A stretch of 64,000 nt of DNA from Actinopolyspora saharensis. Lineage in GTDB: Bacteria > Actinomycetota > Actinomycetes > Mycobacteriales > Pseudonocardiaceae. A model generated the notes under the pieces. It saw only the letters and a list, made by a program, of their open reading frames with translations. It searched no databases and was not told the DNA's origin. Numbering within the stretch: the stretch's first letter is position 1; each line of letters opens with the position of its first letter. Both the position numbers and the translations under genes were made by a program. Location: the NCBI RefSeq assembly GCF_900100925.1, contig NZ_FNKO01000002.1:1488001-1552000 (forward strand), given 5' to 3'. Positions 35,985 to 41,106 of this stretch are shown here, one piece after another.

Positions 35985-36030
35985 GTTTTTGGGTGTGGTC
36001 GGTCCCGTTGCTTGGCGGTGCGGGTGGCGG

Positions 36031-36223
36031 AACCTCTCGCGGGCTCTCGCTCCGGGAGGCCCGACATCGGGTAGCCACCTACACAACGTCGGACCTTCCT
36101 CGCGAGAGCACCACGAGAGAACCCGCGGCGGTGCCGACTGCGTAGGCTCACAGCGCTCGCGTTGGCGTGAAGGCTCTGGTTGGGAGCTCCTGTTCGGGTT
36201 TTGCGGCGGCTCGGCCGGCTCGC
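36031..36223. repeat. Dispersed non-coding repeat, copy C (composite)
   Basis: Between the convergent yqgE and SdpI-like genes. Bases 36031-36123 match copy A at 6581-6669 and are bounded by an imperfect inverted repeat (CTCTCGCGGGCTCTCG against CGAGAGCACCACGAGAG). Bases 36128-36223 match the first half of copy B at 26233-26328. The element therefore joins two modules seen separately elsewhere. Confidence 0.7.
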
Positions 36224-36234
36224 GACGGTGCCGG

Positions 36235-36753
36235 TCACTCGGGGGACGGGGAGGAGGACTCCTGCTGGCCGAGCAGCGCGGCCGCGCAGCCGCCGCCCGC
36301 CGAGCAGAGCCCGGCCGCGGCGCAGCCGCCTCCGGCCGAACCGGCCCCGGCGGGTGTTTGGCCGCTTCCCGAGGAGGCCGCGCAGACGGAGCAGCCGGAT
36401 TCGACCGGAGCCGCCGCCGCGGCGCGCGCCCCGAGCATCCCCCCGGTGAGGATCAGCGCCACCGCGCCGACGGCACCGATTCCCACGATCAGCCAGCTCG
36501 TCGCCGCTGTTCCCAGCGCGGCCGCGCAGCCACCGGCGATCACGGCCACCGCTCCCCCGGCGAGGATCGGCGGCGCGGCCACCCGGTTGGCGAGCCGGAA
36601 GGTCTGCTCGTCGCGCAGCGCGTCCGGGGTGCGCACCCCGGCGTAGCGGTTGCGCGGCAGCGTGCCGCGCAGCCCGCGCACCCCGAGGGTAAGGGCGGCC
36701 GCGCCGAGCAGGATCACGGCGACACACACGATGATCAGCAATGCAAGCGCCAC
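36235..36753 (-). CDS. SdpI-family membrane protein with Cys/Gly-rich tail
   Basis: 172 aa. Three hydrophobic helices are evident (LALLIIVCVAVILLGAAALT; PPILAGGAVAVIAGGCAAAL; SWLIVGIGAVGAVALILTGG). The SdpI signature RNRYAGVRTPDALRDEQTF, then RLANRVAAPP, lies between the first two. SdpI of Bacillus is an immunity protein against the SdpC toxin; most actinobacterial members are uncharacterised. The last ~55 residues are unusual: at least five cysteines in GCSVC, GGGC and GLC contexts with Gly/Ala, which could bind a metal or form disulfides. Confidence 0.8.
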   Translation of the reverse strand: MALALLIIVCVAVILLGAAALTLGVRGLRGTLPRNRYAGVRTPDALRDEQTFRLANRVAAPPILAGGAVAVIAGGCAAALGTAATSWLIVGIGAVGAVALILTGGMLGARAAAAAPVESGCSVCAASSGSGQTPAGAGSAGGGCAAAGLCSAGGGCAAALLGQQESSSPSPE

Positions 36754-36850: not shown

Positions 36851-36958
36851 CTACTGCTCCCAACGCTGCGTCGTGGGACTCCACTGGTTCACGGCGTCGC
36901 CGCGCAGTATCGGAGTGAGGAATGCGTCGGCGAGGGCGACGGCGTCTTCGAACGAGTC
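36851..36958 (-). pseudogene. Remnant of an AbiEii-like toxin C-terminus
   Basis: On the minus strand, in a different frame from the overlapping AbiEi end, 35 codons read DSFEDAVALADAFLTPILRG, then DAVNQWSPTTQRWEQ and a stop. This resembles the C-terminal tail of AbiEii nucleotidyltransferase-like toxins from actinomycetes, which typically end in an AFLDPVL segment and a W-P...W motif. No nucleotidyltransferase core is present, so the toxin seems to have been removed by an internal deletion. The assignment is from remembered family pattern, not an alignment. Confidence 0.5.
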
Positions 36959-37785
36959 ACCGCGTTGAGCGCCCTGCGTACCGGTGCCATACGTGCTTCG
37001 GTGAGATCTGGTAACGACGACTCCGCTCCGGGGGCCGAGTCGGGCAGGGGTGCCGTGTGGCACACGTTCCTTCGGGCTTCCTCGTAGACTTCGGGGAAGG
37101 ACCGCAGGATCTCGGCCAGGACGCGTTCGCTCGGCGAGTCGGCGCTGACGTGATCGAGCAGGTGGTCCAGCAGGGCACGACCATCACCGGCCGCGAGCCC
37201 GTAGCGGCGACTGTAGCCATCGATGCGGGGGGCCAGTCGATTCAGATCCAGCCTGCCGTCGCGGGCGGCGTCGTGGACGATCGGCCCCACGTGACTGGCG
37301 TCGACATGCTCCTCGAGCAGGTCGACGACGGTACGTTCGATCGTCGTGACCGGAAGTCCGTCGACCAGTGTCACGTCGGACTCCGCGACGGCTCGCTTCC
37401 GCAGGCGCAGCGAGGGATCTCGCGGGTTGCGGCGGCGGGGCACGATCATCTCGACGTCCTCGGCGACCAGTTCGCCGAGATCGTGCAGCGTAGCGGCGCT
37501 GCGGTGCGAGACCACTCCACCGTCGGTATCTGGGGTCAGCCGTTCCCAGGCCGGAACGCTCGGGTTGAGCGCGAGCCAGGCGGCCTTGATGTCGGTGTGT
37601 TCGGCCTCCTCGGCCGCGGCGACGGCGTACACCCCGCGGCGCGGGCGCACGAGCAGACCTTGTTCGACCAGCCGAGTCAGCGTGACCGTGTCGATTCCCG
37701 CCCGGCGGGCCTGGGCCGAGGTCACCATTCCCCACTGTCCCGCTGAGTAAGCACCGAGCGCCTTGAGAGCCATCGCCGTCTTCAC
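36889..37785 (-). CDS. AbiEi-family type IV antitoxin, without intact toxin partner
   Basis: 298 aa. The N-terminal winged-helix antitoxin domain reads GMVTSAQARRAGIDTVTLTR, then LVEQGLLVRPRRGVYAV. The conserved middle has VVSHRSAATLHDLGELV, VTLVDGLPVTTIERTVVDLL and GPIVHDAARDG. AbiEi proteins repress their own operon and counteract the AbiEii nucleotidyltransferase toxin. Here no toxin gene follows. The last ~60 residues (after EEARRN) look unlike the family and run over the remnant of the toxin, so the native stop was probably lost in the same deletion. A 15-bp inverted repeat lies just upstream. Confidence 0.8.
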   Translation of the reverse strand: MKTAMALKALGAYSAGQWGMVTSAQARRAGIDTVTLTRLVEQGLLVRPRRGVYAVAAAEEAEHTDIKAAWLALNPSVPAWERLTPDTDGGVVSHRSAATLHDLGELVAEDVEMIVPRRRNPRDPSLRLRKRAVAESDVTLVDGLPVTTIERTVVDLLEEHVDASHVGPIVHDAARDGRLDLNRLAPRIDGYSRRYGLAAGDGRALLDHLLDHVSADSPSERVLAEILRSFPEVYEEARRNVCHTAPLPDSAPGAESSLPDLTEARMAPVRRALNAVTRSKTPSPSPTHSSLRYCAATP

Positions 37786-37808
37786 AGCCCCAGGTTACAC
37801 AGCGGGAT

Positions 37809-37844
37809 ACAGCAATTACTACACCTGAATGTAGTACTTGCTGT
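37809..37844. promoter_or_regulatory. Inverted-repeat operator upstream of the AbiEi gene
   Basis: ACAGCAATTACTACA (37809-37823) and TGTAGTACTTGCTGT (37830-37844) form 15-bp arms with one mismatch and a 6-bp spacer, 24 bp before the ATG. AbiEi antitoxins are known to bind inverted repeats at their own promoter, so autorepression is inferred. The sequence is AT-rich for this genome. Confidence 0.85.
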
Positions 37845-37863
37845 CGGAACATGTGGTTTTCGC

Positions 37864-37917
37864 TCCCCGCGCGGCTGCCGGGCACACCGCCGCGCGGCGT
37901 GCCCGGGAGCACACCGG
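37864..37917. repeat. 54-bp direct repeat, right copy
   Basis: Exact copy of 36771-36824, including the hairpin, located 79 bp upstream of the AbiEi start codon and before the leuS leader region. Confidence 0.95.
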
Positions 37918-38013
37918 TCCGGTCGCGCGTGCTCCCCTGCGGGCGGGTGCCCCGGCTCCTCGCGGCCAGTCCCGGCCCGCGTACGTGCTTTACCCACCGG
38001 TTATCCTGTTCGC

Positions 38014-38049
38014 GTGGCCATCGCCCGACTTCTTGTCGTGCCGCGCTGA
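38014..38049 (+). CDS. Candidate leaderless leader peptide of leuS (MAIARLLVVPR)
   Basis: A GTG-initiated 11-codon frame ending TGA. It contains two adjacent leucine codons, both CTT (38029-38034), a codon that is rare in this GC-rich genome. A TATCCT -10-like hexamer (38002-38007) ends six bases before the GTG, which places the expected transcription start at the GTG itself and suggests a leaderless message. A terminator hairpin follows at 38074-38107, then leuS. The arrangement is that of ribosome-mediated attenuation responding to charged tRNA-Leu. Confidence 0.65.
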   Translation: MAIARLLVVPR

Positions 38050-38073
38050 GACGACGTGACCCTCGGCGCGGCG

Positions 38074-38107
38074 ACCCCTCATGCCCGGCTCGGGATGAGG
38101 GGTTTTT
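38074..38107 (+). terminator. Intrinsic terminator in the leuS leader
   Basis: ACCCCTCAT (38074-38082) pairs with ATGAGGGGT (38095-38103), with a nested CCCG/CGGG stem, and is followed by TTTTT. An earlier ACCCTC (38059-38064) could pair with the same GAGGGGT arm and act as antiterminator. CCGCGC (38041-38046) at the leader-peptide end can pair with GCGCGG (38066-38071). It lies 87 bp upstream of the leuS start. Confidence 0.85.
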
Positions 38108-38193
38108 AGTTTTCCAGGGGCGGCACACCGATGGGTCGTCCGGAGCGCCGGCCGGTGAGCCCGGGCGACGAACTAGGGAAGGAAACGCACACG

Positions 38194-41106
38194 ATGAGTG
38201 GCGCGGAACGGAACTCGCAGGGCACGGACGGTGCGGGCGACGAGACGCCCCCCTTCCGGTACACCGCGCGGATCGCGGGGGAGATCGAGCGGAACTGGCA
38301 GCGGCGCTGGGAGGAGCTCGGCAGCTATCACGCCGCGAACCCGGTGGGTCCGTTGAGCGGCGAGGACGCGGCCGCGGAGAAGCTGTTCGTCCAGGACATG
38401 TTCCCCTACCCCTCGGGGTCCGGCCTGCACGTCGGTCACCCGCTCGGGTTCATCGGCACCGACGTCTACGCGCGCTACCACCGGATGCGGGGGCGCAACG
38501 TGCTGCACACGATGGGCTTCGACGCCTTCGGGCTGCCCGCCGAGCAGTACGCGATGCAGACCGGCACGCATCCGCGCACCACGACCGAGAACAACATCGA
38601 GCGCTACCTGACGCAGATCCGCAGGCTCGGTCTCGGCCACGACGAGCGGCGCAGGGTCGCCACCACCGACATCGAGTTCTACAAGTGGACCCAGTGGATC
38701 TTCCTGCAGATCTTCCACGCCTGGTACGACACCGAGGCCGACCAGGGGCGCGGCCGGGCCCGCCCGATCAGCGAGCTGGAGGCCGAGTTCGCCGCGGGCA
38801 AGCGGTCCACACCGGACGGCACTCCGTGGGAGGAGCTGGACCGCGAGCAGCAGCGCCGCATCATCGACTCGTACCGGCTGGCCTACCTCTCGGAGGCGCC
38901 GGTGAACTGGTGCCCCGGTCTGGGGACGGTGGTGGCCAACGAGGAGGTCACCGCCGAGGGGCTCAGTGAGCGCGGCGACTTCCCGGTGTTCCGCCGCAAC
39001 CTCAAGCAGTGGATGATGCGGATCACCGCCTACGCCGACCGGCTCGTCGACGACCTGGACCGGCTGGACTGGCCGGACAAGGTCAAGACCATGCAGCGCA
39101 ACTGGATCGGCCGTTCGCAGGGCGCCGAGGTGCACTTCGGGCTGGAGAACCGCTCCGAGCGGATCGAGGTGTTCACCACCAGGCCGGACACCCTGTTCGG
39201 CGCCACGTACATGGTGCTGGCCCCGGAGCACCCGCTGGCCGACGAGATCCTGGGCGCCCCGGAGGAGTTCGGTTCCTGGCCGGAGGGCACCGACCAGCGC
39301 TGGACCGGGGGCTACTCGGGCCCGGCCGAGGCCGTGGCCGAGTACCGGCGCGCCGCCGAGATGAAGTCCGAGCTGGACCGCCAGGAGAACAAGGACAAGA
39401 CCGGCGTGTTCACCGGGATGCACGCGGTCAACCCGGTCAACGGCGAGCGCGTTCCCGTGTTCGTGGCCGACTACGTGCTGCTGAGCTACGGAACCGGCGC
39501 GATCATGGCCGTGCCTGGGCAGGACCAGCGCGACTGGGAGTTCGCCGAGAAGTTCGGGCTGCCGATCGTGCGCACGGTGCAGCCGCCCGAGGACTTCGAG
39601 GGCGGGGCCTACACCGGCGACGGGGCCGCGATCAACTCCTCGTCCGAGGTGACCGGGCTGAGCCTGGACGGGCTGGACGTGGACGAGGCCAAGAAGAAGA
39701 TCGTCTCCTGGCTGGAGGAGCACGGTCACGGCAAGGGCAGCGTGCAGTACAAGCTGCGCGACTGGCTGTTCGCGCGGCAGCGCTACTGGGGCGAGCCGTT
39801 CCCGGTCGTCTACGACGAGGAGGGCTTCCCGCTGGGGATCCCCGCCGATCAGCTGCCGGTGGAGCTGCCCGAGGTGGCCGAGTACTCCCCGCGCACCTAC
39901 GACCCGAACGACGCGGACAGCAGGCCGGAGCCGCCGCTGTCCAAGGCCGAGCAGTGGGCCGAGGTGGAGCTGGACCTCGGCGACGGGCTCAAGCACTACC
40001 AGCGCGACACCAACGTGATGCCGCAGTGGGCCGGGTCGTGCTGGTACCAGCTGCGCTACATCGACCCGGACAACCACGAGCGGTTCGTGGACCCGGAGAA
40101 CGAGCGGTACTGGATGGGGCCGCGCCCCGACCGGCACGGCGCGGACGACCCGGGCGGGCTGGACCTCTACGTCGGCGGTGTGGAGCACGCGGTGCTCCAC
40201 CTGCTGTACGCGCGGTTCTGGCAGAAGGTGCTCTACGACCTGGGGCACGTCTCGGCCGAGGAGCCGTACCGCAGGCTGTACAACCAGGGCTACATCCAGG
40301 CCTACGCGTTCACCGACTCGCGCGGGGTCTACGTCCCCGCGGAGGAGGTCGTCGAGCAGGACGGCAAGTACTTCTACAACGGCGAGGAGGTCAACCGCGA
40401 GTACGGGAAGATGGGCAAGAGCCTCAAGAACTCGGTCTCGCCGGAGGAGATGGCCGATTCCTACGGCGTGGACACGCTGCGGCTCTACGAGATGTCCATG
40501 GGTCCGCTGGACTCCTCCCGCCCGTGGGCGACCAAGGACGTGATCGGCTCGCACCGCTTCCTGCAGCGGCTGTGGCGCAACGTCGTCGACGAGCAGACCG
40601 GGCAGCCGCGGGTCACGGACGAGGAGCCCGACGAGGAGCTGCTGCGCGCGCTGCACAAGACCATCGACAGCGTGCGCTCCGACTACGACAGCCTGCAGTT
40701 CAACACCGCGGTGGCCAAGTTGATCGAGCTGAACAACCGGGTCACCAAGGAGTACTCGGGTGCGGCCGGGCCGCCGCGCTCGGTGATGGAGCCGATGGTG
40801 CTGCTGGTGGCCCCGCTGACCCCGCACCTGGCCGAGGAGCTGTGGTCGAAGCTCGGTCACGAGGAGAGCCTGGTGCACGGGCCGTTCCCGGTGGCCGATG
40901 AGAACTACCTCGTCGAGGACACGCTGGAGTACCCGATCCAGTTCAACGGCAAGGTGCGGTCCAGGATGACGGTGCCCGCCTCGGCCGAGCAGGAGGAGCT
41001 CCGCGCCACGGCGCTGGCCGATTCCAGGATCCAGGAGCTGCTGGACGGTTCCGAGCCGCGCAAGGTGGTCGTGGTTCCCGGTCGACTGGTCAACGTGGTC
41101 GGCTGA
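38194..41106 (+). CDS. leuS: Leucyl-tRNA synthetase
   Basis: Charges tRNA-Leu with leucine; class Ia synthetase. 970 aa from the ATG at 38194, which has an AAGGAA ribosome site; the frame extends 21 codons upstream without similarity. The HIGH-type motif is [16 protein letters not shown]. The editing domain contains [20 protein letters not shown] and [20 protein letters not shown]. The KMSKS-type loop reads KMGKSLKNS. The C-terminus ends with [16 protein letters not shown], typical of LeuS. Expression is probably controlled by the leader attenuator just upstream. Confidence 0.98.

Follow-up and report, generated by a model that had tools for sequence, protein, structure and literature searches.

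The DNA analysed here, referred to as the window, is a stretch of 64 kb from Actinopolyspora saharensis. It contains leuS, the gene for leucyl-tRNA synthetase, which matched TIGR00396 at 889.4 bits with its neighbours in frame. The nearest named relative of the protein is that of A. xinjiangensis, with which it shares 92% identity across 236 N-terminal residues. Upstream of the leuS start codon at 38194 there is another in-frame ATG at 38131. leuS on the plus strand and a minus-strand gene at 36889-37785 enclose a divergent intergenic region (37786-38193), and within this region an element composed of a leader frame and a terminator occupies positions 38000-38107, leaving 86 nt between its end and leuS. 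The features are the following:

38000 and 38002-38007, plus strand: promoter of the form GNTANNNT, with G at 38000 and the -10 hexamer TATCCT, according to a conserved profile
38014-38049, plus strand: leader-peptide frame VAIARLLVVPR, 11 codons from GTG to TGA, read from the sequence and from homologous frames at leuS loci
38029-38034, plus strand: regulatory codons CTT CTT, the second of which (38032-38034) is near-invariant
38040-38050 with 38062-38072, plus strand: hairpin 1:2, which includes the stop codon, according to fold and compensatory changes
38065-38071 with 38079-38085, or 38070-38073 with 38082-38085, plus strand: candidate antiterminator 2:3, weak (-4.5 kcal/mol)
38073-38104, with T run 38103-38107, plus strand: intrinsic terminator 3:4, according to fold and compensatory changes
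38176-38182, plus strand: likely Shine-Dalgarno sequence of leuS, GGGAAGG, read from the sequence
38194-41106, plus strand: leuS, ATG start, 970 amino acids, NCBIfam TIGR00396

No gene on the same strand lies upstream that the terminator could end, and the natural reading is therefore that it acts on the leader transcript. In the window an intrinsic terminator thus stands between the leader frame and the gene that would be regulated. The initial annotation had described a -10 box, an 11-codon frame, two adjacent CTT codons and a terminator, with the GTG of the frame placed so that transcription would start there. All of these are real. Their positions can be read directly, the GTG follows TATCCT after six bases (38008-38013), and the composite of a leaderless start, a short frame with a pair of adjacent Leu codons and a terminator matched only once on both strands of the 64 kb, at the leuS leader. 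The C-terminal pattern of the leader, CTNCTTNNNNNNCCGYGYTGA, likewise occurred once in the genome, which comprises 4.68 Mb on two contigs, at the same place, and its reversed control did not occur. As for the neighbours, the divergent gene at 36889-37785 contains an AbiEi_4 antitoxin domain (PF13338), and a SdpI/YfhL family protein (PF13630) is encoded at 36235-36753 on the minus strand.

For the predicted transcript 38014-38115 the folding energy is -53.5 kcal/mol (z = -4.44), a value that none of 200 shuffles reached. The terminator was missed by the rules of the consensus scan tool and found by the folds and by a separate scan. It had been called a perfect intrinsic terminator with a U-run; it is strong and has the U-run, but it is not quite perfect, as its stem consists of 10 pairs, one bulged base and 4 further pairs. 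Hairpin 1:2, a structure absent from the initial annotation, directly abuts the terminator, and both are present in the minimum-energy fold. An identity as T-box or riboswitch was rejected, as Rfam gave no gathering-level match in the window and only a tRNA in five relatives. The best Rfam hit at E<=1 in 37900-38200 was anti-hemB, with 15.1 bits where 49.5 are needed.

Multiple homologous loci were used to characterize the promoter. Of 100 distinct homologous promoters, 98% carry the G two bases 5' of the hexamer, and their profile shows no -35 consensus. When loci were picked by the C-terminal motif of the leader alone, 98 of 103 had TANNNT 6-7 nt 5' of the in-frame start (five did not), compared with 2 of 2032 other start triplets in the same regions. 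The distance between the -10 box and the start was 6 in 72, 7 in 31 and 8 in 5 of the 108 loci found by a scan described below. The mean distance from -10 box to transcription start in Streptomyces lividans is 6.3 nt (PMC8079986), and the start codon is therefore the expected 5' end of the leuS leader RNA. Judging from this spacing, transcription would start at GTG 38014 and the message would be leaderless. The -10 box some 6-7 bases before the start codon is also the arrangement of the leaderless leuL2-leuS leader of Streptomyces, and by its spacing the promoter of the window appears to share it. In six loci that lack the leader (L082, L106, L107, L109, L112 and L113) leuS itself apparently starts 6 bases past a TANNNT box, as judged by eye, as if leuS had become leaderless there.

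To describe the distribution, 179 leuS loci were collected, of which 110 came from a family search and from named genomes (30 and 80, respectively) and 69 from a class-wide draw, with families labelled by number only (f2, f18 and so on). A strict scan that required a terminator with a T run recovered 79 of the 110 loci. An anchored scan recovered 108 of the 179; its anchors were two Leu codons, six bases and a CCGCGCTGA-like arm, together with a leaderless promoter, and the terminator was not required. To these 108 were added, by hand, thirteen loci whose frame has an early TAG and three irregular loci (L069, L094 and L156). Counted over distinct actinobacterial loci, promoter, frame and hairpin arm occur together at 121 of 175; the Pseudonocardiaceae-centred set contributes 83 of 106 and the class-wide set 38 of 69, although the sequences are related and such counts are therefore not independent. 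In the class-wide set the element was present in all loci of f18 (13/13), f19 (13/13), f10 (4/4) and f3, f28 and f36 (1/1 each), in part of those of f26 (3/5) and f30 (2/4), and missing in f2 (0/12), f14 (0/5) and f17 (0/10; one f17 locus was re-read). Among the named carriers are Actinopolyspora, Saccharothrix, Umezawaea, Prauserella, Saccharomonospora, Lentzea, Amycolatopsis, Kibdelosporangium, Actinokineospora and Micromonospora. The named loci without the element include Gordonia, Rhodococcus, Nocardia, Mycolicibacterium and Actinomycetospora, two Amycolatopsis loci and several of Saccharopolyspora.

The leader reads GTG GCC ATC GCC CGA CTT CTT GTC GTG CCG CGC TGA, with the TGA at 38047-38049, and the homologous leaderless leaders are mostly 11-12 codons long. 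Six bases separate the second CTT from the CCGCGC of the hairpin. Of 108 loci, 105 have CTT as their last Leu codon (98 of 101 distinct leaders), and the remaining three, all from f26, have CTC. With the leuS coding parts of 85 loci as yardstick, CTT accounts for only 20 of 4272 Leu codons (0.47%). The irregular loci vary the arrangement. L069 has extra codons in the frame and still has CTT six bases before the hairpin arm; L094 has nine bases between them; in L156, from f30, three glutamines precede the only Leu codon, a CTT (VASQQQRLIGPR), and hairpin and terminator are of the usual type.

The stop codon gives a further indication of translation. In 15 leaders an in-frame TAG occurs two codons after CTT, and the usual stop codon has been lost in 13 of them, compared with one (L018) of 106 other leaders of the scan set. 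The Fisher P value for this contrast is 1.3e-14, with 106 and 1 entered (105 and 1 on recount), and it ignores relatedness: the leaders with the early TAG are mainly from Lentzea and Saccharothrix, with L163 from another family. Decay of a stop codon once an earlier one is present is the behaviour of a translated frame. Frame, stop codon and CTT codon thus look selected and the frame is probably translated, so that the element appears to contain a short translated frame with cognate codons.

Compensatory changes were assessed in two alignments, one with 46 sequences of the first, Pseudonocardiaceae-centred set (A1) and one with 23 sequences of other families (A2). For hairpin 1:2 and the terminator together, 95.2% of the cells in A1 can pair, eight pairs have changed on both sides and none of 500 shuffles reached as high a value. 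In A2 the corresponding numbers are 97.3%, two pairs and 7 of 500 shuffles; the number of additional pair types in these hairpins does not rise above that of shuffles in A2 (483 of 500 as high). Downstream of the hairpin, 107 of 108 loci have the left arm of the terminator, the exception being L138 with a mis-set right arm, and the U-run is weak in some relatives, for example L029 and L051. The alignment of leuS upstream regions, which had been proposed as a check, thus revealed both the conserved Leu-Leu frame and covarying stems.

The recurrence of promoter spacing, frame, CTT and terminator in many families favours the earlier proposal of a leaderless Leu-Leu leader with terminator as leucine attenuator of leuS. 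We propose, with a probability of roughly 0.8, that the element is a ribosome-mediated transcription attenuator that tunes leuS to the supply of leucine. Transcription would begin at GTG 38014 and a ribosome would begin on the leaderless message. When Leu-tRNA is plentiful, the ribosome would pass the CTT codons, reach the TGA and leave. Hairpin 1:2 could then form and occupy its right arm, and the terminator at 38073-38107 would halt transcription before leuS. When charged Leu-tRNA is short, the ribosome would wait with CTT 38032-38034 in its A site. The leading edge of a ribosome lies about 12-13 bases downstream of the A-site codon, as seen in E. coli toeprints. The outer left arm of the hairpin (to about 38044) would then lie under the waiting ribosome, and 1:2 could not close fully. 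Its freed right arm may then pair with the emerging upper left side of the terminator, and RNA polymerase would continue into leuS. The start site, stalling, the exact antiterminator and the response to leucine are the parts of this model that we infer.

The antiterminator is the weakest structure of the element. It had been proposed that an upstream ACCCTC, as a duplicate of the left arm of the terminator, forms it. The copy does exist (38059-38064), but such a duplicate would be complementary to the right arm, beside the U-run, and hence does not make an antiterminator. Moreover, it varies within the genus: six Actinopolyspora loci have ACCCTC (L009 and L012), ATCCTC (L010, L011 and L039, the last on the same contig as L011) or TTCCTC (L013). 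We therefore rejected ACCCTC in this role. An antiterminator that hides CCCCTC, the lower left arm of the terminator, was rejected as well, as this arm was paired less than in shuffles in seven of eight groups; it was above them in f36, which is one sequence. One that conceals the complete left arm is therefore not seen. Two other pairings were considered by eye and rejected. The leader start could pair with CTCAYG of the terminator, but leaders with ATG or GTG do not track the T/C variation, and pairing of the Leu codons with the leuS Shine-Dalgarno sequence, of the type proposed for leuA (PMC1262725), loses its complementarity in leaders with CTG-CTT.

When the part of the RNA left free by a ribosome waiting at CTT was folded, with the left arm of the hairpin masked, the upper left side of the terminator paired upstream with probabilities of 0.65-0.89 (four core positions, Pseudonocardiaceae set) and, in f18, 0.58-0.85 (seven positions). 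This pairing was at most 0.06 when the left arm was available, and 0.43-0.65 in shuffles. Its mean for the 14 positions tested in the Pseudonocardiaceae set did not exceed that of shuffles (0.32 vs 0.41). The upper left side or loop of the terminator is conserved as AYGCC in A1 and CUGYGY in A2, where much of CUGYGY is loop, and it complements the right arm of 1:2. This right arm paired with the upper left side of the terminator (2:3) is the best antiterminator candidate. We list 2:3 as a candidate only, because it is weak and shows no covariation. It can pair in 93.1% of the cells in A1 and 94.9% in A2, compared with 45-68% and 23-78% in slid registers, a control that favours structures derived from members of the same sets. 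Covariation of 2:3 was not found in A1 (92.9% in shuffles, 211 of 500 as high) nor in A2 (96.0%, 491 of 500 as high). For 2:3 the window and L013 both give -4.5 kcal/mol and the four folded loci of other families (L148, L132, L150 and L119) -6.5 to -7.5, and in L063 the stretch prefers another hairpin. The terminators, in comparison, have -15 to -23 kcal/mol, and equilibrium folding yields the terminator in either state (0.88-1.00). It is thus possible, although we doubt it, that attenuation proceeds here without a dedicated antiterminator: 1:2 would help termination or pause RNA polymerase, and a ribosome stalled at CTT would block 1:2 and make termination less efficient. The abutting hairpins that share the minimum-energy fold, the weak and non-covarying 2:3 and the avoidance of upstream pairing by the lower left arm of the terminator all agree with this mechanism, but it leaves unexplained why the upper left side or loop of the terminator is conserved in a form that complements the right arm of 1:2.

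A separate question is what the leader senses. tRNA-Leu(GAG) reads both CTT and CTC according to the decoding rules. A gene for this tRNA is present in the genome, and the leader could report the charging of this single isoacceptor rather than leucine charging in general. The near-invariant CTT six bases before the hairpin arm, with its position kept in L069, and the scarcity of the codon in leuS make this conceivable. Slow decoding of a rare codon would however explain the choice of CTT equally well, the three f26 leaders use CTC, a codon of the same tRNA, and only seven of 49 tRNA matches were inspected, with two Leu tRNA genes among them, from which no copy number follows. We therefore regard sensing of one isoacceptor as rather doubtful. 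The joint proposal of a pan-actinobacterial, leaderless attenuator that senses essentially one rare codon, CUU, six bases from a hairpin that holds the stop codon of the leader, with readout of tRNA-Leu(GAG) charging and an unusual antiterminator that hides the upper left side or loop of the terminator in place of its whole left arm, seems unlikely. Finally, the Leu-Leu frame could be incidental to an ordinary small RNA or to a short transcript that ends at the terminator, with leuS transcribed from another promoter. The consensus scan of 37700-38300 detected no sigma-70 promoter, that of the leader included (it has no -35 match), and is in this respect compatible with another start. Still, this reading is very improbable, since frame, stop codon and CTT look selected and the counterpart in S. 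lividans was described as a leuS leader (PMC8079986).

Read as an attenuator, the leuS element adds one more case to a known type and is not a discovery, because leuS attenuators have already been reported in Streptomyces. Seliverstov et al. (2005; PMC1262725) predicted them in S. avermitilis and S. coelicolor, and RNA-seq of S. lividans TK24 in 2021 described LeuL2 before leuS, a leaderless leader followed by a hairpin and a U-stretch (PMC8079986). The opinion in the initial annotation that control of a synthetase gene by a leaderless peptide is unusual therefore does not hold. LeuL2 resembles the leader of the window in its leaderless start before leuS, its adjacent Leu codons, a C-terminus ...LLLSEPR*, the hairpin and the U-rich terminator, and its peptide, MRAVRLLLSEPR, is encoded exactly in 11 of the 13 f18 loci. 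Common to both are the position before leuS and a homologous C-terminus LLxxPR*. The leader of the window, from the family Pseudonocardiaceae, differs in having 11 codons, a GTG start and two Leu codons (CTT CTT), and its terminator has a longer stem with AYGCC instead of CUGYGY.

With the predicted attenuators of S. avermitilis and S. coelicolor the element shares a leader frame and a terminator hairpin before leuS; the antiterminator hairpin predicted there has its counterpart here in the candidate 2:3. The word leaderless does not appear in the excerpts of that study compared here (PMC1262725). The LEU element or LeuL1 before leuA is likewise a leucine-rich leader in actinobacteria, leaderless in S. 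lividans; these leuA leaders have no typical terminator and were described as a pseudoknot, whereas the leuS element has a terminator (PMC1262725, PMC8079986). Mutations of leader codons of ilvB and leuA in S. coelicolor did not indicate simple attenuation (PMC1262725). Compared with the trp, leu and pheST attenuators of proteobacteria, the leuS element is leaderless, has its stop codon inside segment 1 and has a short and weak 2:3. Those attenuators follow the logic of 1:2, 2:3 and 3:4 that is proposed here as well, with regulatory codons beside segment 1. A comparison with pheST was already made by Seliverstov et al. (PMC1262725). Relative to these two Streptomyces studies, to which our comparison is limited, the present analysis appears to add breadth, the near-invariant CTT and evidence for translation. 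The distribution suggests that the leuS attenuator of Streptomyces is an old device common to at least nine of the sampled family groups and absent from others. The near-invariant CTT, the decay of the stop codon that indicates translation and a relative with a terminator broken by a repeat provide testable handles.

This relative (L010) is the nearest one examined, with a leuS N-terminus that is 98% identical to that of the window. Its leader and hairpin are intact, but a palindromic repeat, present as a copy of 216 bases (L010:2299-2514), splits its terminator. The repeat is interspersed, up to about 216 nt long, and folds into one long hairpin at -137 kcal/mol. At least 40 matches were found in nine of ten Actinopolyspora genomes searched and two in the tenth (G117), and the window itself contains one copy, at 36009-36146 on the minus strand.
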